Assembly (NCBI GenBank): GCA_947561715.1
Contig: OX387205.1
Location: forward strand, 12,777,001-12,841,000
DNA from: Ascidia mentula
Lineage: Eukaryota > Chordata > Ascidiacea > Phlebobranchia > Ascidiidae
DNA: 64,000 nucleotides
Direction of reading: 5' to 3'
In this document: positions 2,837 to 39,734 of the stretch, piece after piece
How positions within the stretch are numbered: the stretch's first letter is position 1
How the letters are laid out: each line of letters opens with the position of its first letter
Made by a program: the position numbers and the translations under genes
The notes under the pieces: model-generated
What the model was told of the DNA's origin: nothing
The model's input: only the letters and a program-made list of their open reading frames with translations
Databases searched by the model: none

Positions 2837-3444
2837 TTACTCCTCAAGGAGTTGATTCAGATCGAAGTCATCATCGTCCTTGGTGATCTCTTCGTTCATC
2901 TTCTTCGCATCCATCTCCATGTCGTGCAAAAGTTGGTCGATATCTTCGTTATCCTCGAAGTCCATAAGTTCTGGAGCGGTAAAAGATTATTTGTATCTTT
3001 ATAATAAATTTACAATGCCAGACGAAAGAATGTTGGCGTATTTTTTTATACACCCGTGAGAAATTTGTCACTAAAACGGTAAAATTTTCTAATCACTGTC
3101 CTTCTGAACCTGGAAGTTTTCAGTTTTTATTTATCTATTCATTTTTCTAATATTACCAACCTTGTTCTCCAATGTATTTGGGAAATCGAACTCTGCGTAT
3201 AAAAAGAAGATTAACTTGATTTTTTTACCAAACGCTTGCACTACGCAACCGTGTCTAATTTGACGACATACCCGGGAGCTTTAGCAAAATTTTTTGGATA
3301 AGCGCCCCATTGAGTCATCATTTTATTGAATCTACGGGGCCAAGCTCTGGCTCGGCCACGACGACGACGGCGTCTTCCCCATGCGTCAGTGTCGACCAAT
3401 AGGAGGACAGAGAAAATAAGGGCAAACAGAATAAGTTTATTCAT
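2837..3444 (-). CDS. Gene A1: secreted Arg-rich cationic peptide precursor (antimicrobial-peptide-like)
   Basis: Exons 3444-3272, 3192-3161 and 2970-2837 join to a 112-aa precursor. Introns begin GTATGT and GTTGGT, end in CAG, and are in phases 2 and 1. Residues 1-21 are a signal peptide ending VDTDA. The next segment is WGRRRRRRGRARAW, followed by a short basic stretch with Trp, Tyr and Phe. Exon 2 reads roughly VRFPKYIGEQ, unlike the acidic SPEDM-type exon 2 of genes B3-H. Exon 3 is acidic (starts ELMDFEDNE, holds DDDD, ends LLEE). A cationic peptide with an acidic propiece is the layout of ascidian antimicrobial peptide precursors, so the role is inferred from layout rather than from a recognised orthologue. 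It is almost the same as A3. Confidence 0.8.
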
Positions 3445-5312
3445 GGTTTAGTTTCTGTTTGAATAGTAAAGAAAGATAATATATGTTGATTTCAGCTTAT
3501 CATGGCACGCATTTACACGGATGCCAGGCTACAGAGTTACGGATAATACAAACATTGCACATTTTCAACTGTTCAACCAACAAACTCTACTAAAAAGACT
3601 CAACTATCTTTCTAATTTCGTGGTCAGGTTTTATAGCTTTCGTTTCTATGTTTGTTTATGCTCAGGTCAGGGGAAATGAGTAATTTTGGCTTTCATGAAA
3701 TAACTTGCCCACCCGCCAGCTGTTGCTTCGGCGTGTTTTGTATAATACATGTCTGAGCATATGCCTTCGACATAAATAGTTACGTGTGGTTTATTCTATG
3801 TACCGGGAAAGGCATGCAGTCACTGCAGACGCACGAATTTATAGTTTCATTTACATCAAATACCACAAAATTGTTGAGTCGAGCACACGTATATACGTCA
3901 TATTGTTGTTGTAGCATCAAGATATGCCCCCATGTAATTAATAATGCACTGAGAACTGCTTTAATTGCACTGAGAACTGCTTTAAAGCAATTATTCTGTT
4001 TGACGTTCGGTCAGTTCGGATACAAAATACTTTTATTATCCGCATAACCTATAAATATCCGGATTTTTTTTATTTTAAGTAACCGCCAAACCGGATAATA
4101 AACGGTAGTTATCAGACAACCGGTTATCCCCAAATCGACTGTTTGTGAAAAATAACATAGATTTCTTCTCTTATAAACGCTAGTGGTTCTTATTTAGCAA
4201 CTGTGGATCCACCCTTGTTACAAGAAAGTTTTTGACATTGATCTCGAAGAAAGTTATCCTACAAAGGTATTAATCTCAAGCATTTGTGCTCCATTCCGAA
4301 ATCGCCATATTTTTCGATTGAATCCTATTACCTTCGTTGTAAATCAACTGCTTAGTTATAGTAAACCTTTAGAATCTACAAACAAAGAATATGCAGACCT
4401 AAAATAAATTCACAAACTGTAAAAACGCATCAAAAACTTTTTCATTTTATTATCGCGCTCACCAACAAAGCAAAACTAGGATATCGGATACCTCTGTTAA
4501 TCTGTTTACCGGTAAATCGTTACCCGGTTAGTTCGTCCTGAGTTGGACATTTTGTCAAAAATTGATTTTTCCGTTCCTTTATTAGCTTTCCATTACTGGT
4601 GTTTTTTGTTTACTCTTAAAATATTTTAGCTTCCCATGGCGTAATCAGTGTTAACGTATGATGTCAAAGGCATGTTACGGCAATGTGGTTAGTCGACATT
4701 TCATATCACTGCATCTTGTTAGTGCTTATAGCGTTTAAAAAGTATTACTTGCATGAAAAGTTTAGACGAATTTCATGTTCTGCGCATGAAGGAATTTAGG
4801 TGGTGAATTTTTGTATGCAACATGACGATACCAAGCGTCTTAACATAACCAAGCGTAACTCATGTTTTATTATCTGGAAACGCAAGTTTTTGATCACCCG
4901 GATTAATCTGATATCTTTTACTTCTTTAAATCGAACATTTGCTTTCATCAACAATGATAGTCGATATTTCCTTTACAATATTTTCACGTTGTTTTGCGTC
5001 GACGTTTGCCGTTAGTAGCATATATATACAAGATCTGAATATTGTGGTCGATGTGTCACGTTGACTTGTAATCCTGCATCAAATTGATGAAATCTTCAAG
5101 TCAAAATTGGTAAAAACCATCAAGATTCTTTTCAAAAGACAGCATAATATCTTTTTACTTGGAGAATACTGTAGTATAGAAATAACTTGACTAAACAAAA
5201 CTACCAACAACTTGTCCATTCTAAAAAATGTGGATTTACATTCACTTGTTGTAGTACTTTACCTCACAAAATTTACAATACGTATCTAGGTCGTACTTTA
5301 CTCCTGTATAAG
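3445..5312. repeat. Spacer between A1 and the B1 remnant
   Basis: Contains the A1 promoter, a direct repeat of a 20-bp motif (cactgagaactgctttaa type, about 3,949-3,986), and a stretch rich in CCGGATA/CCGGTTA motifs at about 4,040-4,130. From 4,489 on, the sequence appears identical to 10,956 onward. No gene seen. Confidence 0.65.
3629..3635 (-). promoter_or_regulatory. TATA box of gene A1
   Basis: On the minus strand this reads GCTATAAAA, 185 bp upstream of the A1 start codon. The same sequence at the same distance precedes A2 and A3, and related boxes precede B3, C, D, F and G. Confidence 0.65.
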
Positions 5313-8306
5313 TTAATCCAGATCGATGTCATTATCGTTTGTTGCCTTCTTTCCATTCCTCTTCTTCGAATCCATCTCCATGTCGTGCATAAGTTGTTCG
5401 ATTTCCTCGTTATCCTCGAAGTCCATAAGTTCTGGAGAGGTAAAAGATTATTTGTATCTTTATAATAAACTTACGATGCCAGAAGAAAGTAAGTTAGTCT
5501 ATATTTTGATACGTGCGTGAAACATTCGTGTTCTTTTCACTAAAATGGCCAATTTTCTAATCACTGCCCTCATATACCTGGAAGTTTTCGGTTTTTATTT
5601 ATCTTTTTATTTTTTAAATTTTACCAACCATGTTCCGTCATGTCTTCGGGAGATTGATCTCTGAATACAAGAGGAAATGCAATTAAAATGTATTTCTAAA
5701 CACTTGCACTTCGCATATGTGTCCAATTCGGCGACGTACCTGGAAACTATGGGGAATTTCGGTGCGTTGGCGTCCCAGTTAAGAAGACTGTGCAAGAAAT
5801 AACGTATAGTTCCGACTAGGCGGCGGCGGCGGCAGAACATGTGCGTGAGTTACACTCAATTGACACGACTGTAGGGAAATATATACGAACCCATATTTGT
5901 GATATCACACGGATTTTCCAAAATTCACGTTATCCCAATTTCAATCTTTACTTTCGTACAACTGCCTTCTTTGGCCACATATATTTTTAATGGCCCCATA
6001 TAACAACCGTTGCGCATCCTTCTCTCAAAACAAACTCACTAAATGAAACTTTATACAGTTACAAACCATATAAAGAACAAGCTTCGCGTCCATTTGAAGT
6101 GAACAGCAACAACCCTTCGCCACTCTGACATAACTGTTCATCGTTAAACAAGAAGTAAAAAAAAAACCTATGGCATAATACGGCTTCGTGTCGCGTATTT
6201 GCAAAACACCAAATGCATCTCGTTACATAAAGTTTTCAAAAATGACCACTCACGGTCGGCACACGATGGAAGTATCAATAATTTATTTGCTGGCTGTGAA
6301 ACAAATTGACCTCTTCTGCACAAGCAGTCACAAGATATTTTTGCCAGCCGTGCCAAGGCATCAATGGGGTCTACACCTGTAGCCTACTTGCAAAGCTTCC
6401 AAAATAACTTGTGTGTGTTGACTAAATCAGAAAATTGTGATGGAAAGAATTTAACATACATCCAATTTCTCATCACCAAATACTTCGACAAATTAATTTC
6501 TTTTAAATTTTTGTGTAAGTTACTGTTACAAATTACTTTCGGGTTGTTTACACGCCAATAAATTTCCGATTAAACAGTTTGAATGAGCATGTTGTATCTC
6601 ATCCTATTTCCCCGGGGTATTCCTGCTGGACAGCGTGTAGTTTTTAAATTGAAACGATTTTTTACAACATGGCCTGTATTGTATTTTGTTTTGCTTCGCA
6701 GTGCATGGCATTTTTGACCAAACTTAAACTGACTTTCCATCGCAAAAACAGCAAAACGCCTTCAACTAACATGATTAATTTAGCAACCAAAATAACTACC
6801 TTGGCATATACATAGCACAATGACAATGTTAACAAAGCTTTGTCTAACTTAAATATTTCCGCATGGCCTAGTTGCTACATTAGTTCACTAAATTCATGAA
6901 AAAATCCAGATCTTCAAAGAAAACTTCAAAGTTTATATATTGGTTGACTTCAAACCTGATCTCATGCTTCGACAGCAGTGACAGGTTAAACTTTGTTAAG
7001 ACCTACAAACCTTTAGGATTGGATCTGTTGACTCTTCAATTAAGTCGACCTTCACCTCAAACTTTAATTACCAACATGAACAATACAGCCTGAATAAATG
7101 ATGACAAATTCATCTCGACAAACGTTTCAGTTGTTTCTACAACTATTCTCACAGCACTACATGCACTTTTGGATGATCTTTACACTAGTTACATTGGCTG
7201 TATTCCTTATTCAAAATGTCCCAAATTTTGTTATGTTCAGATTTTTCTCAGAAATTTTAAAAGACCGCTTTTTTTATCAAATCCTTCGCAAGCCGAAGCC
7301 TTGTTGCTTCCTCCTTACTGCACTGAGCAAACTGTTCTCTAAGCTCTCCTAAAAGGGTTTTTGTCGGGCGCAGTTATCATTGACAAAAATGCATCATCCC
7401 GATAATTAAGTATGACTTGACAGCCACGATAACCATCGTGGAGTTCACAGTTACCGCATAACGTGCAACATACTGTAGCTCACGGGTCACCCTACCGCCA
7501 CGCTGAAAGGCGGGCAATGCAAAAAAACACCCAAATCCATCGCTTAAATAAAACATAAGCCCGATATGCCAGCCACTTTACGCTTCCAAACATCACCATT
7601 TAATATTCCACAAGATATGTAATCTAACACAGCCTTCATATTGCAAACGTTGCTCTAGGAAAGGCATCAAATGTAATATCTTCCCAACACTATAATGACA
7701 CATATATAGCATATCGATGTGCTAGATGATTTAAAATTAATAAGGGACATAGTGCACGCTGTTTATAGCACCACATATCAAACGCCAATGCTCGCTACAA
7801 TTTTAACTTACAATTTAAAACTTATTCCTCGTGGAAAGATGATTTTATATTCGTAAAAATGCTCCCATGTCATATTTTCAGCAACAAACTATCCATTTAT
7901 TGCACTTTCGTTGGCAGCAAAATTTATTTTTTAATAACATGCTCCCAATTATTTTTCTTAGTGCTCATTGGAGCCAATACATTATTCATATCCAATCACC
8001 GCTTCAAATCCGCAGATGTTGCATAATTGTTGTTTCATACCTAACAGCGCCTAAAAGTCCTCAAATAAGTTGTTTTGGTCAACGTGATTACGTTAAACCC
8101 ACATTGCGTTCTGGACCACCAATAGCACACCTCATCGGTCATCCAATGACTCGTGACTCGTTGATCTGTTGATCGTTGACTCATTACCTAACTATAGATG
8201 GTAGTTTGATAAAAGCAAAGTTCTGTTTTGTTTTCCGCCGCACGTTTACATGTAAATTATTTACTCCCAATCTGCATGTCATGCAATTGTCATGAATGAT
8301 TTAACT
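4489..8306. repeat. Recent segmental duplicate, copy 1 (~3.8 kb)
   Basis: Reads the same as 10,956-14,773 at a constant offset of 6,467 bases; every open frame compared is identical in position and translation. Mismatches appear immediately outside both ends (for example c at 8,307 against a at 14,774). It covers B1-psi and its flanks. Confidence 0.8.
5313..5833 (-). pseudogene. B1-psi: 5'-truncated copy of gene B3, no signal peptide
   Basis: The 3' part of exon 1 (5833-5740), exon 2 (5660-5629) and exon 3 (5431-5313) match gene B3 (18292-18903) closely, splice sites included. Homology stops abruptly inside the run of CGG triplets that encodes the Arg stretch. Upstream, the signal peptide and promoter are replaced by unrelated sequence with an in-frame stop just before the only ATG. 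A product could not be secreted as in its relatives. The same break occurs in B2-psi, so truncation came before the duplication. Confidence 0.75.
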
Positions 8307-9298: not shown

Positions 9299-9900
9299 TT
9301 ACTCCTGTAGAAGTTGATTCAGATCGACGTCATCATCGTCCTTGGCGATCTCTTCGTTCATCTTCTTCGCATCCATCTCCAGGTCGTGCAAAAGTTGGTC
9401 AATATCCTCGTTTTCCTCGACGTCCATGAGTTCTGGAGCGGTAAAAGATTATTTGTATCTTTATAATAAATTTACAATGCAACACGAAAGAATGTTGGCG
9501 TATTTTTTGATACACGTGTGAGAAATTTGTCACTAAAACGGTAAAATTTTCTAATCACTGTCCTTCTGAATCTGAAAGTTTTCAGTTTTTATTTATCTTT
9601 TCATTCTTCAAATATTACCAACCTTGTTCTCTAATGTACTTGGGAAATCGAACTCTGCATATAAAAAGAAGATTAACTTGATTTTTTTACCAAACGCTTG
9701 CACTACGCAACCGTGTCTAATTTGACGACATACCCGGGAGCTTTAGCAAAATTTTTTGGATAAGCGCCCCATTGAGTCATAATTTTTTTGAATCTAAGGG
9801 GCCAGGCTCTGGCTCGGCGACGACGGCGTCTTCCCCATGCGTCAGTGTCGAACAATAGGAGGACAGAAAAAATGAGGGCAAACAGAATAAGTTTATTCAT
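9299..9900 (-). CDS. Gene A2: secreted Arg-rich cationic peptide precursor
   Basis: Exons 9900-9734, 9654-9623 and 9432-9299 give 110 aa with the same phases as A1. Compared with A1 and A3, the Arg stretch is two residues shorter (WGRRRRRRARAW), the signal peptide has LLLFDTDA, and exon 3 has several replacements (VEENE, HDLEMD, ends LLQE). The reading frame and all splice sites are intact. A2 is the most diverged of the three A copies although it lies between the other two. Confidence 0.8.
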
Positions 9901-11779
9901 GGTTTAGTTTCTGTTTGAATATTTAAAAGAAAGATAATATATGTTGATTTCAGCTTATCATGGCACGCATTTACACGGATGCCAGGCTACAGAGTTACGG
10001 ATAATACAAACATTGCACATTTTCAACTGTTCAACCAACAAACTCTACTAAAAAGACTCAACTATCTTTCTAATTTCGTGGTCAGCTTTTATAGCTTTCG
10101 TTTCTATGTTTGTTTATGCTCAGGTCAGGGGAAATGAGTTGAGTAATTTTGGCTTTCATGAAATAACTTGCCCACCCGGCAGCTGTTGCTTCGGCGTGTT
10201 TTGTATAATACATGTCTGAGCATATGCCCTCGACATAAATAGTTACGTGTGGTTTATTCTATGTACCGGGAAAGGCATGCTGTCACTGCAGACGCACGAA
10301 TATATAGTTTCATTTACGTCAAATACCACAAAATTGTTGAGTCGCGCACACGTATATACGTCATATTGTTGTTGTAGCATCAAGATATGCCCCCATGTAA
10401 TTAATAATGCACTGAGAACTGCTTTAATTGCACTGAGAACTGCTTTAAAGCAATTATTCTGTTTGACGTTCGGTCAGTTCGGATACAAAATACTTTTATT
10501 ATCCGGATAACCTATAAATATCCGGATTTTTTTTATTTTAAGTAACCGTCAAACCGGATAATAAACGGTAGTTATCAGACAACCGGTTATCTCAAAATCG
10601 ACTGTTTGTGAAAAATAACATAGATTTCTTCTCTTATAGCTAAACGCTAGTGGTTCTTATTTAGCAACTGTGGATCCACCCTTGTTACAAGAAAGTTTTT
10701 GACATTGATCTCGAAGAAAGTTATCCTACAAAGGTATTAATCTCAAGCATTTGTGCTCCATTCCGATATCGCCATATTTTTCGATTGAATCCTATTACCT
10801 TCATTGTAAATCAACTGCTTAGTTATAGTAAACCTTTAGAATCTACAAACAAAGAATATGCAGACCTAAAATAAATCCACAAACTGTAAAAACGCATCAA
10901 AAACGTTGGCATTTTATTATCGGGCTGACCAACAAAGCAAAACTAGGATATCGAATACCTCTGTTAATCTGTTTACCGGTAAATCGTTACCCGGTTAGTT
11001 CGTCCTGAGTTGGACATTTTGTCAAAAATTGATTTTTCCGTTCCTTTATTAGCTTTCCATTACTGGTGTTTTTTGTTTACTCTTAAAATATTTTAGCTTC
11101 CCATGGCGTAATCAGTGTTAACGTATGATGTCAAAGGCATGTTACGGCAATGTGGTTAGTCGACATTTCATATCACTGCATCTTGTTAGTGCTTATAGCG
11201 TTTAAAAAGTATTACTTGCATGAAAAGTTTAGACGAATTTCATGTTCTGCGCATGAAGGAATTTAGGTGGTGAATTTTTGTATGCAACATGACGATACCA
11301 AGCGTCTTAACATAACCAAGCGTAACTCATGTTTTATTATCTGGAAACGCAAGTTTTTGATCACCCGGATTAATCTGATATCTTTTACTTCTTTAAATCG
11401 AACATTTGCTTTCATCAACAATGATAGTCGATATTTCCTTTACAATATTTTCACGTTGTTTTGCGTCGACGTTTGCCGTTAGTAGCATATATATACAAGA
11501 TCTGAATATTGTGGTCGATGTGTCACGTTGACTTGTAATCCTGCATCAAATTGATGAAATCTTCAAGTCAAAATTGGTAAAAACCATCAAGATTCTTTTC
11601 AAAAGACAGCATAATATCTTTTTACTTGGAGAATACTGTAGTATAGAAATAACTTGACTAAACAAAACTACCAACAACTTGTCCATTCTAAAAAATGTGG
11701 ATTTACATTCACTTGTTGTAGTACTTTACCTCACAAAATTTACAATACGTATCTAGGTCGTACTTTACTCCTGTATAAG
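9901..11779. repeat. Spacer between A2 and the B2 remnant
   Basis: Near-copy of 3,445-5,312, with a few substitutions and a 4-base insertion near 10,640 until 10,956, then exact. Holds the A2 promoter and the same CCGGATA-rich stretch. No gene seen. Confidence 0.6.
10087..10093 (-). promoter_or_regulatory. TATA box of gene A2
   Basis: GCTATAAAA on the minus strand, 187 bp upstream of the A2 start codon. Confidence 0.65.
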
Positions 11780-14773
11780 TTAATCCAGATCGATGTCATT
11801 ATCGTTTGTTGCCTTCTTTCCATTCCTCTTCTTCGAATCCATCTCCATGTCGTGCATAAGTTGTTCGATTTCCTCGTTATCCTCGAAGTCCATAAGTTCT
11901 GGAGAGGTAAAAGATTATTTGTATCTTTATAATAAACTTACGATGCCAGAAGAAAGTAAGTTAGTCTATATTTTGATACGTGCGTGAAACATTCGTGTTC
12001 TTTTCACTAAAATGGCCAATTTTCTAATCACTGCCCTCATATACCTGGAAGTTTTCGGTTTTTATTTATCTTTTTATTTTTTAAATTTTACCAACCATGT
12101 TCCGTCATGTCTTCGGGAGATTGATCTCTGAATACAAGAGGAAATGCAATTAAAATGTATTTCTAAACACTTGCACTTCGCATATGTGTCCAATTCGGCG
12201 ACGTACCTGGAAACTATGGGGAATTTCGGTGCGTTGGCGTCCCAGTTAAGAAGACTGTGCAAGAAATAACGTATAGTTCCGACTAGGCGGCGGCGGCGGC
12301 AGAACATGTGCGTGAGTTACACTCAATTGACACGACTGTAGGGAAATATATACGAACCCATATTTGTGATATCACACGGATTTTCCAAAATTCACGTTAT
12401 CCCAATTTCAATCTTTACTTTCGTACAACTGCCTTCTTTGGCCACATATATTTTTAATGGCCCCATATAACAACCGTTGCGCATCCTTCTCTCAAAACAA
12501 ACTCACTAAATGAAACTTTATACAGTTACAAACCATATAAAGAACAAGCTTCGCGTCCATTTGAAGTGAACAGCAACAACCCTTCGCCACTCTGACATAA
12601 CTGTTCATCGTTAAACAAGAAGTAAAAAAAAAACCTATGGCATAATACGGCTTCGTGTCGCGTATTTGCAAAACACCAAATGCATCTCGTTACATAAAGT
12701 TTTCAAAAATGACCACTCACGGTCGGCACACGATGGAAGTATCAATAATTTATTTGCTGGCTGTGAAACAAATTGACCTCTTCTGCACAAGCAGTCACAA
12801 GATATTTTTGCCAGCCGTGCCAAGGCATCAATGGGGTCTACACCTGTAGCCTACTTGCAAAGCTTCCAAAATAACTTGTGTGTGTTGACTAAATCAGAAA
12901 ATTGTGATGGAAAGAATTTAACATACATCCAATTTCTCATCACCAAATACTTCGACAAATTAATTTCTTTTAAATTTTTGTGTAAGTTACTGTTACAAAT
13001 TACTTTCGGGTTGTTTACACGCCAATAAATTTCCGATTAAACAGTTTGAATGAGCATGTTGTATCTCATCCTATTTCCCCGGGGTATTCCTGCTGGACAG
13101 CGTGTAGTTTTTAAATTGAAACGATTTTTTACAACATGGCCTGTATTGTATTTTGTTTTGCTTCGCAGTGCATGGCATTTTTGACCAAACTTAAACTGAC
13201 TTTCCATCGCAAAAACAGCAAAACGCCTTCAACTAACATGATTAATTTAGCAACCAAAATAACTACCTTGGCATATACATAGCACAATGACAATGTTAAC
13301 AAAGCTTTGTCTAACTTAAATATTTCCGCATGGCCTAGTTGCTACATTAGTTCACTAAATTCATGAAAAAATCCAGATCTTCAAAGAAAACTTCAAAGTT
13401 TATATATTGGTTGACTTCAAACCTGATCTCATGCTTCGACAGCAGTGACAGGTTAAACTTTGTTAAGACCTACAAACCTTTAGGATTGGATCTGTTGACT
13501 CTTCAATTAAGTCGACCTTCACCTCAAACTTTAATTACCAACATGAACAATACAGCCTGAATAAATGATGACAAATTCATCTCGACAAACGTTTCAGTTG
13601 TTTCTACAACTATTCTCACAGCACTACATGCACTTTTGGATGATCTTTACACTAGTTACATTGGCTGTATTCCTTATTCAAAATGTCCCAAATTTTGTTA
13701 TGTTCAGATTTTTCTCAGAAATTTTAAAAGACCGCTTTTTTTATCAAATCCTTCGCAAGCCGAAGCCTTGTTGCTTCCTCCTTACTGCACTGAGCAAACT
13801 GTTCTCTAAGCTCTCCTAAAAGGGTTTTTGTCGGGCGCAGTTATCATTGACAAAAATGCATCATCCCGATAATTAAGTATGACTTGACAGCCACGATAAC
13901 CATCGTGGAGTTCACAGTTACCGCATAACGTGCAACATACTGTAGCTCACGGGTCACCCTACCGCCACGCTGAAAGGCGGGCAATGCAAAAAAACACCCA
14001 AATCCATCGCTTAAATAAAACATAAGCCCGATATGCCAGCCACTTTACGCTTCCAAACATCACCATTTAATATTCCACAAGATATGTAATCTAACACAGC
14101 CTTCATATTGCAAACGTTGCTCTAGGAAAGGCATCAAATGTAATATCTTCCCAACACTATAATGACACATATATAGCATATCGATGTGCTAGATGATTTA
14201 AAATTAATAAGGGACATAGTGCACGCTGTTTATAGCACCACATATCAAACGCCAATGCTCGCTACAATTTTAACTTACAATTTAAAACTTATTCCTCGTG
14301 GAAAGATGATTTTATATTCGTAAAAATGCTCCCATGTCATATTTTCAGCAACAAACTATCCATTTATTGCACTTTCGTTGGCAGCAAAATTTATTTTTTA
14401 ATAACATGCTCCCAATTATTTTTCTTAGTGCTCATTGGAGCCAATACATTATTCATATCCAATCACCGCTTCAAATCCGCAGATGTTGCATAATTGTTGT
14501 TTCATACCTAACAGCGCCTAAAAGTCCTCAAATAAGTTGTTTTGGTCAACGTGATTACGTTAAACCCACATTGCGTTCTGGACCACCAATAGCACACCTC
14601 ATCGGTCATCCAATGACTCGTGACTCGTTGATCTGTTGATCGTTGACTCATTACCTAACTATAGATGGTAGTTTGATAAAAGCAAAGTTCTGTTTTGTTT
14701 TCCGCCGCACGTTTACATGTAAATTATTTACTCCCAATCTGCATGTCATGCAATTGTCATGAATGATTTAACT
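10956..14773. repeat. Recent segmental duplicate, copy 2 (~3.8 kb)
   Basis: Partner of 4,489-8,306 at an offset of 6,467 bases. It spans B2-psi and flanking non-coding sequence. The abrupt edges fit a recent duplication or gene conversion; an assembly duplication cannot be excluded from sequence alone. Confidence 0.8.
11780..12300 (-). pseudogene. B2-psi: second 5'-truncated copy of gene B3
   Basis: Exon 1 remnant 12300-12207, exon 2 12127-12096 and exon 3 11898-11780, identical to B1-psi. Signal peptide and promoter are missing, with the breakpoint in the CGG run. It lies inside the exact 3.8 kb duplicate. Confidence 0.75.
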
Positions 14774-15698: not shown

Positions 15699-16307
15699 TT
15701 ACTCCTCAAGGAGTTGATTCAGATCGAAGTCATCATCGTCCTTGGTGATCTCTTCGTTCATCTTCTTCGCATCCATCTCCATGTCGTGCAAAAGTTGGTC
15801 GATATCTTCGTTATCCTCGAAGTCCATAAGTTCTGGAGCGGTAAAAGATTATTTGTATCTTTACAATAAATTTACAATGCCAGACGAAAGAATGTTGGCG
15901 TATTTTTTTTATACACCCGTGAGAAATTTGTCACTAAAACGGTAAAATTTTCTAATCACTGTCCTTCTGAACCTGGAAGTTTTCAGTTTTTATTTATCTA
16001 TTCATTTTTCTAATATTACCAACCTTGTTCTCCAATGTATTTGGGAAATCGAACTCTGCACATAAAAAGAAGATTAACTTGATTTTTTTACCAAACGCTT
16101 GCACTACGCAACCGTGTCTAATTTGACGACATACCCGGGAGCTTTAGCAAAATTTTTTGGATAAGCGCCCCATTGAGTCATCATTTTATTGAATCTACGG
16201 AGCCAAGCTCTGGCTCGGCCACGACGACGACGGCGTCTTCCCCATGCGTCAGTGTCGACCAATAGGAGGACAGAGAAAATAAGGGCAAACAGAATAAGTT
16301 TATTCAT
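15699..16307 (-). CDS. Gene A3: secreted Arg-rich cationic peptide precursor
   Basis: Exons 16307-16135, 16055-16024 and 15832-15699 give 112 aa. The only residue difference from A1 noted in exon 1 is Leu for Pro after ARAW; exons 2 and 3 look the same. Surrounding non-coding DNA is also closest to A1. Confidence 0.8.
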
Positions 16308-18291
16308 GGTTTAGTTTCTGTTTGAATAGTAAAGAAAGATAATATATGTTGATTTCAGCTTATCATGGCACGCATTTACACGGATGCCAGGCTACAGAGT
16401 TACGGATAATACAAACATTGCACATTTTCAACTGTTCAACCAACAAACTCTACTAAAAAGACTCAACTATCTTTCTAATTTCGTGGTCAGGTTTTATAGC
16501 TTTCGTTTCTATGTTTGTTTATGCTCAGGTCAGGGGAAATGAGTAATTTTGGCTTTCATGAAATAACTTGCCCACCCGCCAGCTGTTGCTTCGGCGTGTT
16601 TTGTATAATACATGTCTGAGCATATGCCTTCGACATAAATAGTTACGTGTGGTTTATTCTATGTACCGGGAAAGGCATGCAGTCACTGCAGACGCACGAA
16701 TTTATAGTTTCATTTACATCAAATACCACAAAATTGTTGAGTCGAGCACACGAATATACGTCATATTGTTGTTGTAGCATCAAGATATGCCCCCATGTAA
16801 TTAATAATGCACTGAGAACTGCTTTAATTGCACTGAGAACTGCTTTAAAGCAATTATTCTGTTTGACGTTCGGTCAGTTCGGATACAAAATACTTTTATT
16901 ATCCGGATAACCTATAAATATCCGGATTTTTTTTATTTTAAGTAACCGTCAAACCGGATGATAAACGGTAGTTATCAGACAACCGGTTATCCCAAAATCG
17001 ACTGTTTGTGAAAAATAACATAGATTTCTTCTCTTATAAACGCTAGTGGTTCTTATTTAGCAACTGTGGATCCACCCTTGTTACAAGAAAGTTTTTGACA
17101 TTGATCTCGAAGAAAGTTATCCTACAAAGGTATTAATCTCAAGCATTTGTGCTCCATTCCGAAATCGCCATATTTTTCGATTGAATCCTATTACCTTCGT
17201 TGTAAATCAACTGCTTAGTTATAGTAAACCTTTAGAATCTACAAACAAAGAATATGCAGACCTAAAATAAATGCACAAACTGTAAAAACGCATCAAAAAC
17301 GTTGGCATTTTATTATCGCGCTCACCAACAAAGCAAAACTAAGATATCGGATACCTCTGTTAATCTGTTTACTGGTAAACCGTTACCCGGTTAGTTCGAC
17401 CTGAGTTGGACATTTTGTCAATAATTGATTTTTCTGTTCCTTTATTAGCTTTCCATAACTGGTGTTTTTTGTTTACTCTTAAAATATTTTAGCTGCCCAT
17501 GACGAAATCAGTGTTAACATATGACGTCACAGGCGTGTTACGGCAATGTGGTTAGTCGGTATTTCATATCACTGCTTCTTGTTAGTGCTTATAGCGTTGA
17601 TGACAATTTGCTTTAATAGGGATTACTTCCTGTTGTTTGCATGGAAAGTTTAGACGAATTTCATGTTCTGCGCATGAAGAATGTATGTGGTGAATTTTTG
17701 TATGCAACATGACGATACCAAGCGTCTTAACATAACCAAGCGTAAGCGTTACTCATGTTTTATTATCTGGAAACGCAAGTTTTTGATCACCCGGATTAAT
17801 CTGTTTTTTTTTACTTCTTTAAATCGAACATCAACAATGATAGTCGATATTTCCTTTACAATATTTTCACGTTGTTTTGCGTCGACGTTTGCCGTTGGTA
17901 GCATATATGTGGGGTTTTGAAATAATATCTTAAAGTGCGAAATACTTGATAAAATCACCACACAACATCGCCATTTTTCAAGTTTTATTAAATTAACAAC
18001 AAGATCTGAATATTATGGTCGATGTGTCACGTTGACTTGTAATCCTGCATCAAATTGATGAAATCTTCAAGTCAATCGCCTGGAAATTGGTAAAAACCAT
18101 CAAGATTCTTTTCAAAAGACAGCATAATATCTTTTTACTTGGAGAATACTGTAGTTTAGAAATAACTTGACCAAACAAAACTACCAACAACTTGTCCATT
18201 CAAAAAGTGTCGATTTATATTCACTTGTTGTAGTACTTTACCTCACAAAATTTACAATACGTATCTAGGTCGTACTTTACTCCTGTAGAAG
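16308..18291. repeat. Spacer between A3 and B3
   Basis: Resembles 3,445-5,312 but with more differences after about 17,340, including extra sequence near 17,595-17,640 and 17,910-18,000 that the truncated-copy units lack. A minus-strand AATAAA lies at 17,984-17,989. No gene seen. Confidence 0.6.
16492..16498 (-). promoter_or_regulatory. TATA box of gene A3
   Basis: GCTATAAAA on the minus strand, 185 bp upstream of the A3 start codon. Confidence 0.65.
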
Positions 18292-18903
18292 TTAATCCAG
18301 ATCGACGTCATCATCGTTTGTTGCCTTCTTTCCATTCCTCTTCTTCGAATCCATCTCCATGTCGTGCATAAGTTGGTCGATTTCCTCGTTATCCTCGAAG
18401 TCCATAAGTTCTGGAGAGGTAAAAGATTATTTGTATATTTATAATAAACTTACGATGCCAGAAGAAAGTAAGTTAGTCTATATTTTGATACGTGCGTGAA
18501 ACATTCGTGTTCTTTTCACTAAAACGGCCAATTTTCTAATCACTGCCCTCATATACCTGGAAGTTTTCGGTTTTTATTTATCTTTTTATTTTTTAAATTT
18601 TACCAACCATGTTCCGTCATGTCTTCGGGAGATTGATCTCTGAATACAAGAGGAAATGCAATTAAAATGTATTTCTAAACACTTGCACTACGCATATGTG
18701 TCCAATTCGGCGACGTACCTGGAAACTATGGGGAATTTCGGTGCGTTGGCGTCCCAGTTAAGAAGACTGTGCAAGAAATAACGTATAGTTCCGACTAGGC
18801 GGCGGCGGCGGCTGCGAAGGCGACGGCGTCGTCCTTTCAACGCGTCAGTGTCGACCAATAGGAGGACGGCAAAAATGAGGGAAAACAGAATAATTTTGTT
18901 CAT
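18292..18903 (-). CDS. Gene B3: intact secreted Arg-rich cationic peptide precursor
   Basis: Exons 18903-18719, 18639-18608 and 18410-18292 give 111 aa, phases 2 and 1, first donor GTACGT. The signal peptide (MNKIILFSLIFAVLLLVDTDA) is followed by LKGRRRRLRSRRRRL, then a hydrophobic-aromatic helix-like stretch (VGTIRYFLHSLLNW) unlike the A or C-H mature regions. Exon 2 has the SPEDMTE motif. Exon 3 stops early after VDLD: the TAA is followed by what would be LLQE in frame, so the acidic tail lacks its last five or so residues. It is the intact parent type of the two truncated B copies. Confidence 0.78.
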
Positions 18904-24725: not shown

Positions 24726-25402
24726 TCACTCCTCAAGGAGTTGAACCAGATCGACGTCATCATCGTCTGTTGCCATCTCTTCGTTCATCATCATAGCATC
24801 CATCTCCATGTCGTGCATGAGTTGGACGAATTCCTCGTTCCTCTGCAGATCCATCAGTTCTAAGGTGTAAAAATTCTTATACTCCACTCGTAGTAAAAGG
24901 CCAGTATACTGACCTATAGGCTTATACTCTGATTCGCATGTTAGATTTTTAATTTCTTGCAAAAGCACAATTCTTCATACAATGGATTTTTCTTTTGCGT
25001 CCATGTGCTCGTTTAAACCATGAAAGTCATTTCTATGTCGTCTCCTAACTTTTCGCATTGATTAACATCGTAATTTACGGATACTAACCTTGTTCTATCA
25101 TGTCTTCGGGGGAATTATCTCTGCACGCAAAGAGAAAAATAAATGACATACATTATTACTTGCACCACACATCATCAAGCTTTGCTGTTTTACCGGGAAA
25201 TAGCATCCGATCTTGAGACGTGTCGGGCCCACTTTTGAACGTGGACAGGCCATTTCCAGGCTTTATTGTCCCACTTCTTAACATCGCGAATGAAGCGACC
25301 GCGTCGGCGTCTTCGGCTGCTTCGACGGCGCCTTCCCCAAGCGTCAGTGTCGACCAATAGGAGGACGGCAAAAATGAGGGCGAACAGAATAAGTTTATTC
25401 AT
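24726..25402 (-). CDS. Gene E: secreted cationic precursor with decayed heptad repeats
   Basis: Exons 25402-25194, 25120-25089 and 24859-24726 give 124 aa, phases 2 and 1, first donor GTAAAA. The signal peptide is standard. The Arg stretch is GRRRRSSRRRRRGRF. The four heptads are eroded: KKWDNKA, WKWPVHV, QKWARHV, then SRSDAIS, where Trp and Lys are lost and Asp appears. Exon 3 is intact and acidic (ELMDLQRNEE to VDLVQLLEE, stop TGA). The position equivalent to the TATA box (about 25,759-25,766) has changed to CTTCAAAGG on the minus strand. The gene may be weakly expressed or decaying. Confidence 0.75.
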
Positions 25403-27288: not shown

Positions 27289-27402
27289 TGCGAAGCCTGC
27301 GAAGCCTGCGAAGCCTGCGAAGCCTGCGAAGCCTGCGAAGCCTGCGAAGCCTGCGAAGCCTGCGAAGCCTGCGAAGCCTGCGAAGCCTGCGAAGCCTGCG
27401 AA
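27289..27402. repeat. 9-bp minisatellite (tgcgaagcc)n, about 12-13 units
   Basis: A perfect head-to-tail run of tgcgaagcc. It is open in both directions (Cys-Glu-Ala on plus, Arg-Leu-Arg on minus) only because the period is a multiple of three. It lies just past the second upstream block. Confidence 0.9.
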
Positions 27403-28223: not shown

Positions 28224-28895
28224 TTACACCTCTAGAAGTTGAACCAGTTTGGCGTCATCTTCGTCTGTTGACATCTCTTCGTTCATCTTCATAGCGTCCG
28301 TCGCCATGTCTTGCATGAGTTGGACGAATTCCTCGTTCTTCTGCAGGTCCATTAGTTCTGAAGTGTAAAATGTCGGTCTTATACCCTACTCGTAGAAGAA
28401 GTTCGTTGGTTTATACTCTGAATCCCAGGTTAAAATTTTAATTTCTTACAAAAACTGCAGTTCTTCATACAATGGATTTTTCAAATTTTTCGATCATGGC
28501 CTCTTTTAAACCAATAAAGTCATTTCAATGTCGCCTCATTACTTTTCGCAGTAATTAACACGGTAATTTACAGATACTAACCTTGTTCTGTCATGTCTTC
28601 AGGCGACGTGTCTCTGCATGCAAAAATAAAAATAAATGACATTCATGATTACTTGCACCACAAGCTCTTTGCCGTCTTACCCGAACCATTTAGTCCATTT
28701 CTTGACGTGTCCGGCCCACTTGTGAACGTGGCCAGCCCATTTCTGGGCCTTATTGGCCCACTTCCTAACACCGTTAATGAAGCCACCACGTCTTCGGCTG
28801 CTTCGGCGGCGACGACGACGGCGTCTTCTCCAAGCGTCAGTGTCGACCAATAGCAGGACGGCGAAAATCAGGGCGAACAGAATAAGTTTGTTCAT
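28224..28895 (-). CDS. Gene F: secreted cationic precursor with Trp/His heptad repeats
   Basis: Exons 28895-28681, 28613-28582 and 28357-28224 give 126 aa. It has the longest Arg run of the family, nine in a row after the Trp that follows the signal peptide. The heptads are RKWANKA, QKWAGHV, HKWAGHV and KKWTKWF. By my count the mature part of exon 1 has about 20 Lys plus Arg and no acidic residue. Exon 2 reads TSPEDMTEQ and exon 3 ends LVQLLEV. Splice donors are GTAAGA and GTTAGT. Confidence 0.82.
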
Positions 28896-30377: not shown

Positions 30378-31031
30378 TTACTCAAGGAGATGATCCAGAT
30401 CGACGTCATCATCGTCTGTTGCCATCTCTTCGTTCAGGTTCATCGCATCCATCTCCATGTCGTGCATGAGTTGGACGAATTCCTCATTATTCTGCAGGTC
30501 CATCAGTTCTGAAGTGTAAAATGTCAGTCTTATACCCTTCTCGTAGAAAAAGGTTAGTAGGCTTATACTCTGATTCGCACGTTAGAAGTTTGGTTTCTTA
30601 CAAAAATACAGTTCTTTATGTAAGCCTACGTCCTTTTGCCTTATTTCAACCAGAATAGTCATTTCAATGCTGCCTGATAACTTTTCGCAAAACATCATAA
30701 TTTACATATACTAACCTTCTTCTGACATGTCTTCGGGCGACTTATCTCTGCATATAAAAAGAAAATTAAATGACATTTATCATTACTTGCACCACACATC
30801 ATAAAGCTCTTCGCCGTCTTACCCGAAAACTCCAATCCATTTCTTGACGTGTCCGGCCCACTTGACAACGTGGCCAGCCCATTTCTTGGCATGACCTACC
30901 CACTTCTTAACACCACGAATGAAGCGACCGCGTCGACGTCTGCTTCTGCGACGACGGCGTCTTCCCCAAGCGTCAGTGTCGACCAATAGGAGGACGGCGA
31001 AAATGAGGGCGAACAGAATAAGTTTATTCAT
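30378..31031 (-). CDS. Gene G: secreted cationic precursor, clearest Trp/His heptad repeat
   Basis: Exons 31031-30823, 30747-30716 and 30508-30378 give 123 aa; phases 2 and 1; donors GTAAGA and GTTAGT. Residues 1-21 are the signal peptide. WGRRRRRRSRRRRGRF is followed by four regular heptads: KKWVGHA, KKWAGHV, VKWAGHV, KKWIGVF. Counting by eye, the mature exon 1 part carries about 19 Lys/Arg and three His, while exons 2-3 carry about 21 Asp/Glu and one Lys, so the precursor is nearly charge-balanced. This fits a propiece that keeps a membrane-active peptide quiet until processing; that role is inferred from known ascidian and fish precursors. No cleavage site is evident beyond the signal peptide. 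Confidence 0.83.
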
Positions 31032-32364: not shown

Positions 32365-32985
32365 TTAGTCCAGACCGACGTAATCATCGTCTGTAGCCAA
32401 CTTTTCGTTCAGTTTCATCGCATCCATCTCTATGTCGTGCATGAGTTGGACGAATTCGTCGTTATTCTGGAGGTCCATTAATTCTGGAACGAAGGAATAT
32501 GGATGAAAATGCATTCGCTTGAAGGTTTTGTTAAACTTAATTGTGGTTGGGTGTTTATACTAGCTTTAGTTATCCGATCCCCTTTCAGGTTTGCCCCTGA
32601 CGAATTTTGTGTGGTTATGATTCCCGATTTGAATATAATAAAGCTTTTGTTCTGTATTTACTCTTCGTAAATGTCTTTATTTTGTACGTTGGGTGTGTTA
32701 TATACCAACCTTGTTGTGTCATTTCTTCTGGCGATCGATCTCTGCATACAAAGCAACACAGTTAAAACAAATCTCTGACATATATCCAGTCAAAGTTGTT
32801 CATGTACCCAATCATCATTACATGACTCACCCAATCCATTTGAAGACGTGACCAGCCCACCTGACCACGTGACCAAGCCATCTACTACCACCCCCGCTGT
32901 GACTTCTACGTCTTCTTCCCCTAGCGTCGGTGCCGACAAGTAGTAAGACGGAAATAATAAGGGTGAACAAAATTCGTCTGGTCAT
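32365..32985 (-). CDS. Gene H: shortest secreted cationic heptad-repeat precursor of the minus cluster
   Basis: Exons 32985-32831, 32741-32710 and 32483-32365 give 101 aa; exon 1 alone is too short to stand out as an open frame. The signal peptide is diverged (MTRRILFTLIISVLLLVGTDA). The Arg stretch is reduced to RGRRRRSHSGGGS. Three shortened heptads follow: RWLGHVV, RWAGHVF, KWIG. Donors are GTGAGT and GTTGGT. Exon 2 reads DRSPEEMTQQ. Exon 3 ends early at a TAA where most relatives have a sense codon before LLEE. A TATA box like those of its neighbours is not evident; a TAAATATATA stretch near 33,050-33,060 is possible. Confidence 0.72.
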
Positions 32986-35603: not shown

Positions 35604-35675
35604 ATCCACGGGGTGGCATGAAAATTGTGCCCGCAAACATTATTTTAACACTGGGCGCCTAAATGGCCACACTAG

Positions 35676-35683
35676 TATTTAAG
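35676..35683 (+). promoter_or_regulatory. TATA-like box of gene I
   Basis: TATTTAAG about 60 bp upstream of the gene I start codon. The same octamer precedes gene J. Confidence 0.5.
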
Positions 35684-35741
35684 TATAGGTCCTGACTTGA
35701 CTAATTTCTTGCAGTCGTATTTACTGTAAACACTAAGAACC

Positions 35742-36354
35742 ATGAAGCAATCATTGGTAATATGGGCCCTCGCGTTGGCGATCCTCGTCGCCAGCGTAGA
35801 CTGCCGCAGGAGAAGGAGAAGTAGAAGTAGAAGAGGACGACGATTCTGGAGTTCGAAGTCAAGAAGGTCACAGCGAAAACCGAGGTGGGGAAGTGGCCGA
35901 TCAGCTCTGTTTAGGCAAATGGCGCACTATCTTCCTGAGTTGATGATGATGATTTCAAGTCCAAGAAGGTTGGTTTTCTGTATTTCGTATTATACGATGC
36001 TTGTACGATACAGAGTATACATACATTTTGTTTATAGGGGAATGGGAAGCAAACTACAGGGGCAGTATTACCCCCAGCAAGGAGAAGGATACAGAATGCA
36101 TGGTAACGGAAGTTGACATAAGTGAATACGCAATACTGTCCTGATATTTCTTTACTTAAAAGTTATGCCGCGCTATATTTTTATTTAGTAGTCCCTTAAC
36201 CGACTTCTCCTTTTTGCATTTCGATTTATTTTAATGCAAATGAAGTTGAAAGATGTACAATTCGACTAAACCCCTTTATTACGTTACAGGGATGGAAGCA
36301 CTCCATATGAAACCCACACAGGATGAGGCAGGAAATGACATCATTGATATGTGA
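35742..36354 (+). CDS. Gene I: secreted Arg/Ser-rich cationic peptide precursor, plus-strand group
   Basis: Best model: exons 35742-35968, 36038-36102 and 36290-36354, 118 aa, intron phases 2 and 1 as in the minus cluster. The signal peptide (MKQSLVIWALALAILVASVDC) is followed by RRRRRSRSRRGRRFW and further SR/KR-rich sequence with two Trp. Exon 3 is short and mildly acidic (QDEAGNDIIDM). The first intron is only 69 nt and, being a multiple of three without stops, can be read through, so a longer exon 1 product is possible. AATAAA lies at 36,400-36,405. An alternative donor (AG|GTGGGG near 35,884) cannot be excluded. No detectable identity to A-H beyond layout. Confidence 0.65.
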
Positions 36355-37557: not shown

Positions 37558-38228
37558 ATGGCAAAATTTGTGTTTATCATTGCAATCAGTCTGGCCCTGT
37601 TGCTCAACGTTGACTGTCTTTGGTGCAGGCGCAGGAGGGCACAAATAAAGAAAGCTATCCACAAGGCAGGGCAACTTGTCAATGAAGTGAATCGTTTGTC
37701 GGCCTACATAGGAAGATTGCATGTGTACGTTCACCGTTTCTATTGCTACAAATCCCTGTAGTTTTTACTATATTGTTGTTAAATCATTGATGCGTCATAC
37801 TTTACGAAGGATTCTTTTTTACTATACTATTGTTACTACTACTTATTTGAGATATATTTATTATTTTTAATTCTATTTTTCAAATCTAGCGCCATAACAT
37901 ATATTTTATCGTTTTGCAGACCAAAGGTGAAGGGCCAAGACTCCTCAGATGACAGTAAGTACTTGTCAGTAAAATGTTTGTTAGTTTCCCAAGCATTCTC
38001 TGTTTTTTAAGTTGTAGTCGTACCTGCGGCCCGTAAAGACACACTTAACACATCACAGAGATCTCATACATTTTATTTCGGTTTAAATCAAATGCGTTTA
38101 AATGCATTTTGCTCATTCACAACCCAATATGTAATGTTACACAATACCTTATGGCAGGAAATGAAACGGAGGAAGAAGATAACGATTTGGAGGACTTGGA
38201 CGCGCTCCTGGACCTTGATTCAGAGTGA
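37558..38228 (+). CDS. Gene J: secreted short cationic precursor with acidic tail, plus-strand group
   Basis: Exons 37558-37724, 37920-37954 and 38158-38228 give 90 aa. Phases are 2 and 1; donors GTACGT and GTAAGT. The signal peptide (MAKFVFIIAISLALLLNVDC) leads to LWCRRRRAQIKKAIHKAGQL, a basic amphipathic-looking segment ending near RLHV. Exon 2 has QDSSDD. Exon 3 is almost wholly acidic (NETEEEDND, then LEDLDALLDLDSE). AATAAA lies at 38,317-38,322. The layout copies the minus-strand genes with unrelated sequence, and exon sizes (35 and 71 nt for exons 2 and 3) equal those of gene K. Confidence 0.75.
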
Positions 38229-39150
38229 CCAGCACTCCGTGAGACAACACTAACTTCGACACAAGATCGGAAGCCTGTGTTTGTGCAACTATTTGTGTAC
38301 CTGCGTTTTCGGTGTCAATAAAAACAAACGGACGATAAACTCCGCATTGCAATTGTGCCATAACCCAGATGGAAATAAAACTCCATTGTTGGCAACGTTT
38401 ATTTTGACAAAAAACATTCAATTAAGTCTAAAGCAATGGTGATTGTTAAAAGAAACAAAACACATGATTTACATCTGCCGTACGGCCGCTTTCAACGTTT
38501 TTCATTTAAAAATATCAGACATAATTATGGCCACGTGACTCACGACAATAGGTGTAGAAAACGTTATCACAATGGTTGAAACTTTTTTGTTTTCGCCCAG
38601 AACGTTAAATAAGATTTGCTAAACGGGTTCAGCTCATTGTAAAACTGGAGTGAATGAGTATCGTTCAGGAAGGGAGTGCGAAACTGAGCGTTGGTCTCAT
38701 TGCTAAACGATACTTACCGCATCCTGTACTTTAACGTGTTACAATTGAAACTTATGGGATGTTGCAGAGTAGGCGAAAGCATCCACAATCAAACGAAAGG
38801 TTTTGTTAATTGTTTAGTAGCAGAACCGATAATTCGCACAATGCTATATGGGGGTATCGTCTTCATTCACACGGCACTACTATCGCTGGTTTCAACACAG
38901 TTAGTGGCGCCAAGTTTCGTTACCTATATCGTGATTGTATAAATTCAAACCTACGTGGCTGCTTAACTACTAGGGTACATACAATCAAGTTGTCTGCATC
39001 AAGCTGTCTACGTCAAGTATACCAGTAAGTATTAGTTTTATTGCTAAAAATTTTGACATTGCTTTCATCAATTTTACCAAAAATCTTTCTGGAGGACCGA
39101 TGCCATCAATTATTAGTTCTTTACAAACTGTTACATAGGTTCACAGAGTC
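38229..39150. other. Gap between J and K, with K promoter and 5' UTR
   Basis: A TATAAAT box (38,938-38,944), a likely 5' UTR exon ending at about 39,024 with donor GTAAGT, and an acceptor at 39,136-39,138 just before the K start codon. No other gene seen. Confidence 0.5.
38938..38944 (+). promoter_or_regulatory. TATA box of gene K
   Basis: TATAAAT about 30 bp before a likely 5' UTR exon whose donor (A|GTAAGT, 39,025) and acceptor (39,138) bracket an intron ahead of the K start codon. Confidence 0.5.
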
Positions 39151-39734
39151 ATGGGAAAGATTTCATTGCTCCTTATCGGCCTCGCGCTGATCGCAAACAT
39201 AGAGTGTTACATGACAGAAAATGGGGTTCTCATAACTCAGACCGAAGAGCAAGCGCGCCGCATTTCCAAGGGGCTAACCACTCTTATGGGACTGTTGTAC
39301 GCCGCCCATGAGTAAGTTGAACTTGTGTATGTTTTCAACTGTTTTTGTTTCTAATCGTTTTATCGGACGCGTTTGCTCGGGTCGAACGTTGGACTTTTAT
39401 TTTTGGGGGATAAAATGTAGTAGAGGGAATATTGTTTATTGAATGTATTTTATTTCTCAGCGAGGTCAAAGAACCCACCGGATTCTCGGAAGACGGTACG
39501 TGACCCTTACAATCCTCCGTTGCATATAGTTTTGCCAGATCATACTCTGGTTTGTGGAAACATTGTCCAAAAGCATAGTTTTCCCTGTTAGTTGTTTGTG
39601 ATTAAATAAGGAACAAAGCAACAGATATTTTAAATTTTGAAAAGGTTTTTGTTTCGTCTACAGATATGGAGTCACCTGAGGCGGATAGCGATCTGATGGA
39701 GTTGAACGAAATGTTGCAACGTTATATTAACTGA
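39151..39734 (+). CDS. Gene K: secreted non-Arg-rich member of the three-exon precursor family
   Basis: Exons 39151-39311, 39461-39495 and 39664-39734 give 88 aa; phases 2 and 1; donors GTAAGT and GTACGT. The signal peptide is MGKISLLLIGLALIANIEC. The mature part begins YMTENGVLITQTEEQARRIS and continues into a short hydrophobic helix-like stretch (GLTTLMGLLYAAHE). There is no Arg run; net charge is about neutral or slightly acidic. Exons 2 and 3 remain acidic and match J in length (35 and 71 nt). AATAAA lies at 39,763-39,768. The gene shares structure with the cluster but its product may do something else, or may act by a non-cationic mechanism. Confidence 0.7.

Follow-up and report, generated by a model that had tools for sequence, protein, structure and literature searches.

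Styelins of Styela clava (PF17562) and botryllin of Botryllus schlosseri share a precursor plan of a signal peptide, a cationic amphipathic helix, a Gly amide donor, a cut before Asp, and an anionic propiece (PMC8659048, PMC7387483, PMC9966394). In styelin cDNAs, the signal is followed by the mature peptide, the amide-donating Gly, and a 26-residue propiece (PMC8659048), and both styelins and clavanins are reported to be cleaved before Asp or Asp-Asp (PMC7387483). Botryllin, a styelin-like peptide, is made by morula cells as a pro-form, and furin is present in morula-cell granules (PMC9966394). In Ciona, 22 peptides were predicted and 5 newly tested, mostly with the same order of parts (PMC7387483). 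Here, we describe an array of genes with this general layout in a 64-kb stretch of chromosome 9 (C73) of Ascidia mentula, referred to below as the window. The genes lie on the minus strand and combine a signal peptide, a small exon 2, and an acidic exon 3 (the chassis, or carrier) with a basic middle part (the payload) of several kinds. On sequence evidence, we put at roughly 80% the probability that this array is an expansion of genes for precursors of linear cationic alpha-helical antimicrobial peptides (LCAMPs), in which different payloads are carried on the styelin chassis.

Several likenesses and differences place the array among these systems. A. mentula genes that score as PF17562 members resemble the window genes in signal, exon 2, acidic exon, and intron phases. 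Haemocyte expression, DOPA and bromo-Trp modification, and antibacterial activity are further marks of styelins. Unlike S. clava styelins, in which the mature peptide directly follows the signal in the cited account (PMC8659048), the window genes have an Arg run between signal and helix. The Ciona LCAMPs (Ci-MAM, Ci-PAP, KH.C7.94, and KH.C1.640) are like the window genes in their order of parts, in the Arg runs of some members, and in combining conserved signal peptides with divergent payloads; synthetic Ciona peptides are active (PMC7387483). Clavanins and clavaspirin of S. clava are His-rich helical haemocyte peptides that are stronger in acid, are cut before Asp-Asp, and are amidated (PMC10608444, PMC2866484, PMC7387483); clavanins have 23 residues, whereas the window heptad payload is a Trp/Val/His repeat behind an Arg run, a distinction drawn by description only.

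The first-pass annotation of this DNA had likened the layout to that of ascidian antimicrobial precursors, and this is supported: precursors that pass the Styelin cut-off are encoded elsewhere on this chromosome by a cluster whose signal, exon 2, and acidic exon agree with those of the window genes. It had also found the Arg runs and heptads unlike any described peptide. This no longer holds for the Arg runs, since Ciona peptides with RRR or RRRR runs have been published, and KH.C1.640 and KH.C7.94 are active (PMC7387483, Tables 1 to 3); it does hold for the heptad payload, which had no useful match outside this genome in Pfam or in one PDB search (one match at E 2.4 for the g11 precursor); a PDB search with a styelin-like payload returned none. 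The kind of peptide is therefore already known, and the heptad payload and the sharing of one chassis by different payloads would be the new elements. Among the literature matches listed, whose scope leaves out most subscription journals, none describes this cluster, and within the same scope nothing relevant was found for Ascidia mentula together with antimicrobial peptide. For the order Phlebobranchia, the literature compared describes Ciona peptides and no styelin.

A minus-strand array of three-exon genes

The acidic exon 3 occurs in 12 copies in the window, all on the minus strand. Complete three-exon models were obtained for nine of these 12 loci (g1, g3, g5, g6, g7, g9, g10, g11, and g12). 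All nine have an intron in phase 2 followed by one in phase 1, an exon 2 of 32 nucleotides (nt), and precursors of 101 to 126 amino acids (aa) without Cys, and all encode, with the corresponding charges, a signal peptide, a cationic part, and an acidic propiece in that order; signal peptides were assessed by eye and by hydropathy.

Three payload types can be distinguished. A-type payloads are found in g1 (2837 to 3444, 112 aa; exon 1, 3272 to 3444; exon 2, 3161 to 3192; exon 3, 2837 to 2970), g3 (9299 to 9900, 110 aa; exons 9734 to 9900, 9623 to 9654, and 9299 to 9432), and g5 (15699 to 16307, 112 aa; exons 16135 to 16307, 16024 to 16055, and 15699 to 15832). The only intact B-type gene is g6 (18292 to 18903, 111 aa; exons 18719 to 18903, 18608 to 18639, and 18292 to 18410). 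Heptad payloads are found in g7 (20832 to 21456, 124 aa; exons 21248 to 21456, 21142 to 21173, and 20832 to 20965), whose first intron is GC-AG with the donor GCAAGT; in the partly degenerate g9 (24726 to 25402, 124 aa; exons 25194 to 25402, 25089 to 25120, and 24726 to 24859); in g10 (28224 to 28895, 126 aa; exons 28681 to 28895, 28582 to 28613, and 28224 to 28357) and g11 (30378 to 31031, 123 aa; exons 30823 to 31031, 30716 to 30747, and 30378 to 30508); and, in short and divergent form, in g12 (32365 to 32985, 101 aa; exons 32831 to 32985, 32710 to 32741, and 32365 to 32483).

The remaining three minus loci are defective. Two are 5'-truncated B-type remnants, g2 (5313 to 5833; exon 2, 5629 to 5660; exon 3 to ∼5313) and g4 (11780 to 12300, outer ends approximate), in which start and signal peptide are missing, since the identity to g6 breaks off within a run of GCC triplets. 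They break at the same base and are identical to each other across a 300-nt repeat; the two truncations are, as their sequences read, copies of one event. The third, g8 (22707 to 23298; exon 1, 23110 to 23298; exon 2, 23007 to 23038; exon 3 to ∼22707), is of heptad type with a frameshifted exon 1, which ends in a different phase, so that an early stop is reached.

A plan-finding program was set to require an ATG, a hydrophobic start, a basic exon 1 that closes in phase 2 with a GT donor, a 32-nt exon 2, and an acidic exon 3. It returned 10 matches in the window, each at the start of a signal-bearing minus locus, g8 included, and none in 10 Markov-simulated 64-kb windows or in eight other 3-kb genome loci. 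Only GT donors are permitted by the program, and g7 and g8 were reached via sites that differ from those of the gene models. Its settings were derived from the minus genes, and it is therefore blind to three plus-strand neighbors, p1 to p3, whose second exons are 65, 35, and 35 nt.

The A and B genes lie in three tandem units with a period of ∼6.4 kb, each unit bearing an A+B pair, between approximately 164 and 18800; the left limit is perhaps outside the window. The repeat families of these units are 93 to 100% identical between units. Directly upstream of g1, g3, and g5, blocks of 214 nt (3468 to 3681, 9926 to 10139, and 16331 to 16544) are 100% identical, whereas most unit repeats differ by ∼1 to 7%; this suggests either recent conversion or a conserved promoter. 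Between g9 and g10, at ∼27290 to 27400, lies a short tandem repeat with a 9-nt unit (CEACEACEA in the plus-strand reading).

These models bear on the extent and makeup of the cluster as first described. Its outer ends, 2837 and 39734, coincide with the stop-codon ends of the models g1 and p3. The single three-exon plan with phases 2 and 1 is intact in nine minus genes, but three minus loci are defective and the homology of the plus trio is unconvincing. For the same reason, two-sidedness and the count of 15 loci (12 minus and 3 plus) are weakened, although the 12 minus exon-3 loci stand. What had been called a two-sided cluster is, judged from the models, one proven minus array and three neighbors with a similar layout.

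A carrier shared with styelin-like genes

A second cluster, at 10.908 to 10.942 Mb of the same chromosome, has its near end ∼1.83 Mb from g1. All six of its spliced precursors that were tested pass the PF17562 cut-off of 27 bits (s1, 28.4; s6, 28.8; s2, 30.5; s3, 30.7; s4, 29.9; s7, 34.1 bits). The match begins at residue 30 to 33, right after the Arg run, and depends on the part encoded by exons 2 and 3, as exon 1 alone scores 15.5 bits in s1 and 16.4 bits in s7. For this reason, little meaning attaches to a genome search with the Styelin model, which found no true member and only one place at E 3.8, below the cut-off.

The carriers of the two clusters are related. Profile alignment of the acidic tails of window and styelin-like genes with hhalign gave a probability of 95% (E 3.5e-8, 34 columns), and against composition shuffles the s1 tail aligns with those of g11 (z 10.1) and g6 (z 6.1). 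The styelin-like signal peptide aligns with that of g11 at z 9.9, and exon 2 encodes DKSPEEMTDE in the styelin-like genes and DKSPEDMSEE in g11. The 32-nt exon 2 and phases 2 and 1 fit the styelin-like genes by eye, the model builder being confined to that plan. The window genes thus appear to have their carrier (signal, exon 2, acidic exon) in common with styelin genes while differing in the active part, and an Arg-rich heptad array that looks unrelated to styelins is tied to them via a common gene chassis.

None of the g11, g1, and g6 tails aligns above shuffles with any of three Ciona tails (z -1.3 to 1.2), in a comparison of short sequences with low power. Of six pairings of the p2 and p3 tails with Ciona tails, a single one, p3 with Ci-MAM-A, comes to P 0.03 (z 2.2).

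Charge, amphipathicity, and processing

Cationic and acidic charges are closely matched in many of the precursors (g11, +19/-20; g7, +18/-19; g1, +13/-15; s1, +16/-16), and the two charges correlate (Spearman 0.74, P 0.02, for the nine intact minus genes; 0.58, P 0.047, when all 12 intact genes of the window are taken; 0.55, P 0.02, over the 17 modelled genes). The charge table comprises loci other than g2, g4, and g8, and the moment table loci other than g2, g4, g5, and g8. Seven of the eight minus payloads tested have a whole-payload hydrophobic moment above that of shuffles (P < 0.05; g6, P 0.07), and in six of eight the best 18-residue stretch also exceeds shuffles (g6 and g9 miss). The moment formula reproduces exactly all four of the published Ciona rows checked (PMC7387483, Table 3). 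By the cationic-amphipathic-helix criterion used for Ciona LCAMPs, seven of the eight minus payloads tested qualify; the Ciona length range is 50 to 100 residues with no Cys after the signal (PMC7387483), and the minus precursors, at 101 to 126 aa, lie outside it while lacking Cys. Single-sequence AlphaFold models predict the cationic part of g11 to be helical over residues 9 to 47 of 48 (mean predicted local distance difference test [pLDDT] score, 68.7) and the acidic part over residues 5 to 30 and 38 to 42 of 43 (pLDDT, 73.7), both with intermediate confidence. The junction of exons 1 and 2 reads Gly|Asp in four of the nine intact minus genes (g7, g10, g11, and g12) and in all seven styelin-like models. 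In 13 upstream stretches of 600 nt, TATAAAAG was found five times, against 0.5 expected.

If the window genes are expressed and their products processed as those of styelin genes are, the precursor would enter the secretory path and lose its signal peptide after ...DTDA. The acidic helical C-terminal piece, with nearly equal and opposite charge, would keep the cationic helix inactive in haemocyte granules. On release, the piece would be severed at the boundary of exons 1 and 2 (Gly|Asp in four of the five heptad genes with intact models), with the junction Gly serving as amidation donor and cleavage falling before Asp, as reported for styelins. The Arg run may stay on the helix as a charged head, or a furin-like enzyme may remove it. 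The freed helix, built of K-W-A-G-H-V heptads with Trp and Val on one face, would then disrupt and kill microbes at their membranes, and its His could strengthen its activity in acid.

A number of observations weigh against the antimicrobial reading or its styelin component. None of the 12 intact window proteins exceeds the PF17562 cut-off (6 were searched at E <= 10 and 6 at E <= 0.1), and Pfam scans of all 12 intact precursors gave nothing above cut-off. Three members of the 10.9-Mb cluster that are known as exon 1 only have no Styelin match, where exon 1 of true members itself reaches only 15.5 to 16.4 bits. The A types depart from the common carrier: the g1 tail cannot be aligned with the styelin-like tail (z 0.4), exon 2 encodes VRFPKYIGEQ rather than the acidic DxSPEDM, and the junction is Gly|Val; in g6 and g9, the junction is Arg|Asp. 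Window and styelin-like payloads are not more alike than shuffles (five pairs, z -1.1 to 1.5), in a test that is weak, since 20 published residues of styelin A score only z 0.7 and 1.2 against s1 and s6. The styelin assignment consequently rests on the Pfam model; with window genes, the same residues give z -0.9 (g11) and z 2.2 (g1, P 0.049). Charge balance is broken by g10 (+20/-14), p1 (+18/-2), and p3 (0/-10), and the correlation between cationic and acidic charge given above overstates the number of events because paralogues are not independent. The payload borders used in the moment test were chosen by the analyst, and NF-kB-like sites are not enriched in the upstream stretches (1 found versus 0.36 expected).

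The matched charges could also mean that the unprocessed precursor is itself the product, a polyampholyte of Arg run, helix, and Asp/Glu tail that condenses the contents of granules or builds extracellular traps or tunic matrix. Seven of the nine intact minus genes are within 3 of zero net charge, both halves of g11 are predicted to be helical, and a styelin-like pro-form is located in morula-cell granules and traps of Botryllus (PMC9966394). We nevertheless give this explanation little credence: in the family to which the sister styelin-like genes belong, the mature peptide is cut out and kills (PMC8659048, PMC2866484), and the sticky part of a scaffold should be conserved, whereas the heptad payload is the least constrained part of its gene.

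A different role for Arg-rich carriers or other secreted peptides, such as the handling of metals via spaced His, is also improbable. His does return every seven residues in the payloads of g11 and g7, and A. mentula haemolymph is cited as vanadium accumulating (PMC11109543), yet on the same chassis His is absent from the A payloads and occurs once in the B payload, and charge and amphipathicity fit membrane-active peptides.

Constraint, divergence, and replacement of payloads

Ratios of nonsynonymous to synonymous substitution rates (dN/dS) were taken from several gene sets, among them the four heptad genes g7, g9, g10, and g11. The dN/dS sets leave out g2, g4, and g8; g5 and g12 are outside the seven-gene set, g6 and g12 outside the small sets, and s5 and s8 outside the styelin-like set. 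In the heptad genes, the signal has a dN/dS of 0.06, the acidic part one of 0.32, and the payload one of 0.78. For the signal and the acidic part, the proportion of nonsynonymous differences (pN) is smaller than that of synonymous differences (pS) and the interval of the difference leaves out zero, which is what protein-coding DNA should show; for the payload, the pN-pS interval spans zero (-0.167 to 0.063). Payload dN/dS is 0.58 in the A type and 0.42 in the styelin-like genes. The diversifying selection that the first-pass annotation had expected is not borne out by these values, which for the heptad payload are consistent with weaker constraint and do not prove positive selection.

Comparison of payloads with introns gives a varied picture. 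The payloads of g7 and g11 are 0.90 identical and their introns near 0.60; in g9-g11, the payloads are 0.75 identical and the introns 0.81 and 0.69; in g10-g11, the corresponding values are 0.81 and 0.80 and 0.75. That the array is mostly a relic, left by a burst of tandem duplication with few working genes and relaxed constraint, is highly improbable: three of the 12 minus loci are broken, dN/dS is high in the heptad payload, g9 has partly lost the heptad pattern, and payload divergence in g9-g11 and g10-g11 is about that of the introns, but the heptad signal and acidic parts are constrained and the g7 and g11 payloads are far more alike than their introns, so that selection keeps at least these two genes.

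Under the antimicrobial reading, the A and B genes provide the clearest case of change in the active part. The payloads of g1 (A) and g6 (B) resemble each other no better than shuffled sequences do (identity, measured over the longer sequence, 0.49 versus 0.52; Smith-Waterman z 0.5), whereas by the same measure identity is 0.68 in intron 1 (z 13.5) and 0.80 in intron 2 (z 58.6); the signal is 0.87 identical, and exon 3 is 0.78 identical. A versus B is the only comparison in which payload replacement is shown to exceed intron divergence. In six pairings of A or B with heptad genes, intron 2 aligns in none and intron 1 in three, and because most of these introns have diverged too, the payload-versus-intron test says little there. 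Across the array, payloads thus appear to have been sometimes held, sometimes drifting, and once replaced. In the A-B case, a probable immune effector has kept its carrier while its active part diverged beyond the level of its introns, and genomes of other Ascidiidae offer a way to test for payload exchange.

How a payload might be replaced is a matter for tentative suggestion. Perhaps the run of Arg codons after the signal is a swap point at which recombination puts new payloads on a fixed secretion-and-neutralization chassis. The A and B neighbors retain introns that are 68 to 80% identical on either side of a payload that cannot be aligned, and the single truncation event whose copies are g2 and g4 has its breakpoint within the run of Arg-codon triplets. 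On this doubtful scheme, one frame, consisting of the signal start, the 32-nt exon 2, and the acidic exon 3, would have carried styelins, Trp-His heptads, and the unrelated A and B payloads. A genome DNA search for a donor of the A or B payload matched window copies only, and since no donor was found, very fast point change may instead have produced the same result.

Candidate relatives elsewhere in the genome

The genome (195.8 Mb, 79 contigs) was searched with g11, g1, and three relatives as queries, and such searches yield first-look candidates only. The 10.9-Mb region (C73, 10.908 to 10.946 Mb) contains 14 exon-1 places, one of them at E 0.18 only. Nine lie at C67, 7.860 to 7.885 Mb, followed by a lone exon 3 at 7.887 Mb for which no exon 1 was found; four lie at C67, 8.230 to 8.237 Mb; two at C67, 5.73 Mb; and two at C2, 1.915 to 1.918 Mb. 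Five isolated weak matches (on C73 and C2, two each, and one on C69) were left out of the count. The family total comes to ∼43 loci, the 12 of the window included, so that some forty candidate peptide genes are catalogued in one genome. The 8.23-Mb and C2 groups have poor E values (0.014 to 6.5, in one search) and were counted because their open frames repeat the signal and the Arg-rich start. Complete models were attempted for 13 loci outside the window. Four were poor owing to bad automatic first donors (k2, k6, k8, and s8) and are outside the dN/dS sets and the charge table; the k2 and k8 tails and the k2 payload, read by eye, were used in comparisons.

The genes at 5.73 Mb are like the window genes in having phases 2 and 1 (by eye) and a related heptad payload, which aligns with those of g11 and g7 at z 6.6 each; unlike the window genes, they have an exon 2 of 47 nt (by eye) and a different signal peptide, and they lie on another chromosome. 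The 7.86-Mb cluster compared with the window by profile gave a probability of 8% (E 0.004), and single-sequence shuffles for g11 gave z 5.1 and 4.7. At C67, 8229754 to 8237630, four genes have a MNKS..LLL signal and Arg/Tyr-rich parts, one of them with RRRSPVY repeats; by eye, they resemble Ciona KH.C7.94 and KH.C1.640 and the Ciona signal consensus MNKSALLXLLXXGLXVLXEXXXA (PMC7387483). On C2, two copies of exon 1 with the same translation (1914986 to 1915180 and 1917769 to 1917963) encode nine Arg residues followed by a His/Gly-rich sequence.

Plus-strand neighbors and other features of the window

On the plus strand, p1 (35742 to 36354; exons 35742 to 35968, 36038 to 36102, and 36290 to 36354) encodes an Arg-rich, secreted-type protein of 118 aa, whose three-exon plan is unproven because the first intron (69 nt) is open and in frame; its tail charge is only -2. 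Better defined are p2 (37558 to 38228, 90 aa; exons 37558 to 37724, 37920 to 37954, and 38158 to 38228) and p3 (39151 to 39734, 88 aa; exons 39151 to 39311, 39461 to 39495, and 39664 to 39734), which have three exons and the phases of the minus genes with a 35-nt exon 2. The basic part of p2 carries +8 and its tail -12, and the protein contains Cys; the p3 payload has no net charge and is not cationic, with a tail of -10.

Against g11, the tails of p1, p2, and p3 score z 1.6, 0.2, and -0.2, and the signals z 3.2, 1.6, and 0.4; among themselves, the trio reach z 4.5 to 6.5 for the signals and, for p2-p3, z 3.3 for the tails, but z values of signal peptides overstate homology because function imposes a common order of composition on these peptides. 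Single-protein genome searches with p1, p2, and p3 (E <= 10) matched their own exons alone. The plus genes, as modelled, share the exon plan and phases, and their homology to the minus genes is not convincing.

Farther along, at 51997 to 56673, a dispersed repeat has open frames that recur on both strands (GLEVREAAEIGPNRFETGIFRSIRPGTGHF...); one piece of it, when tested, gave no Pfam match at E <= 0.01. Adjoining p3, at ∼40713 to 41000, are two exons of a rhodopsin-type receptor, which score 28.7 bits with 7tm_1 (E 1.2e-6), below its cut-off of 30.5, and 27.0 bits with Srsx, above its cut-off of 24.1.

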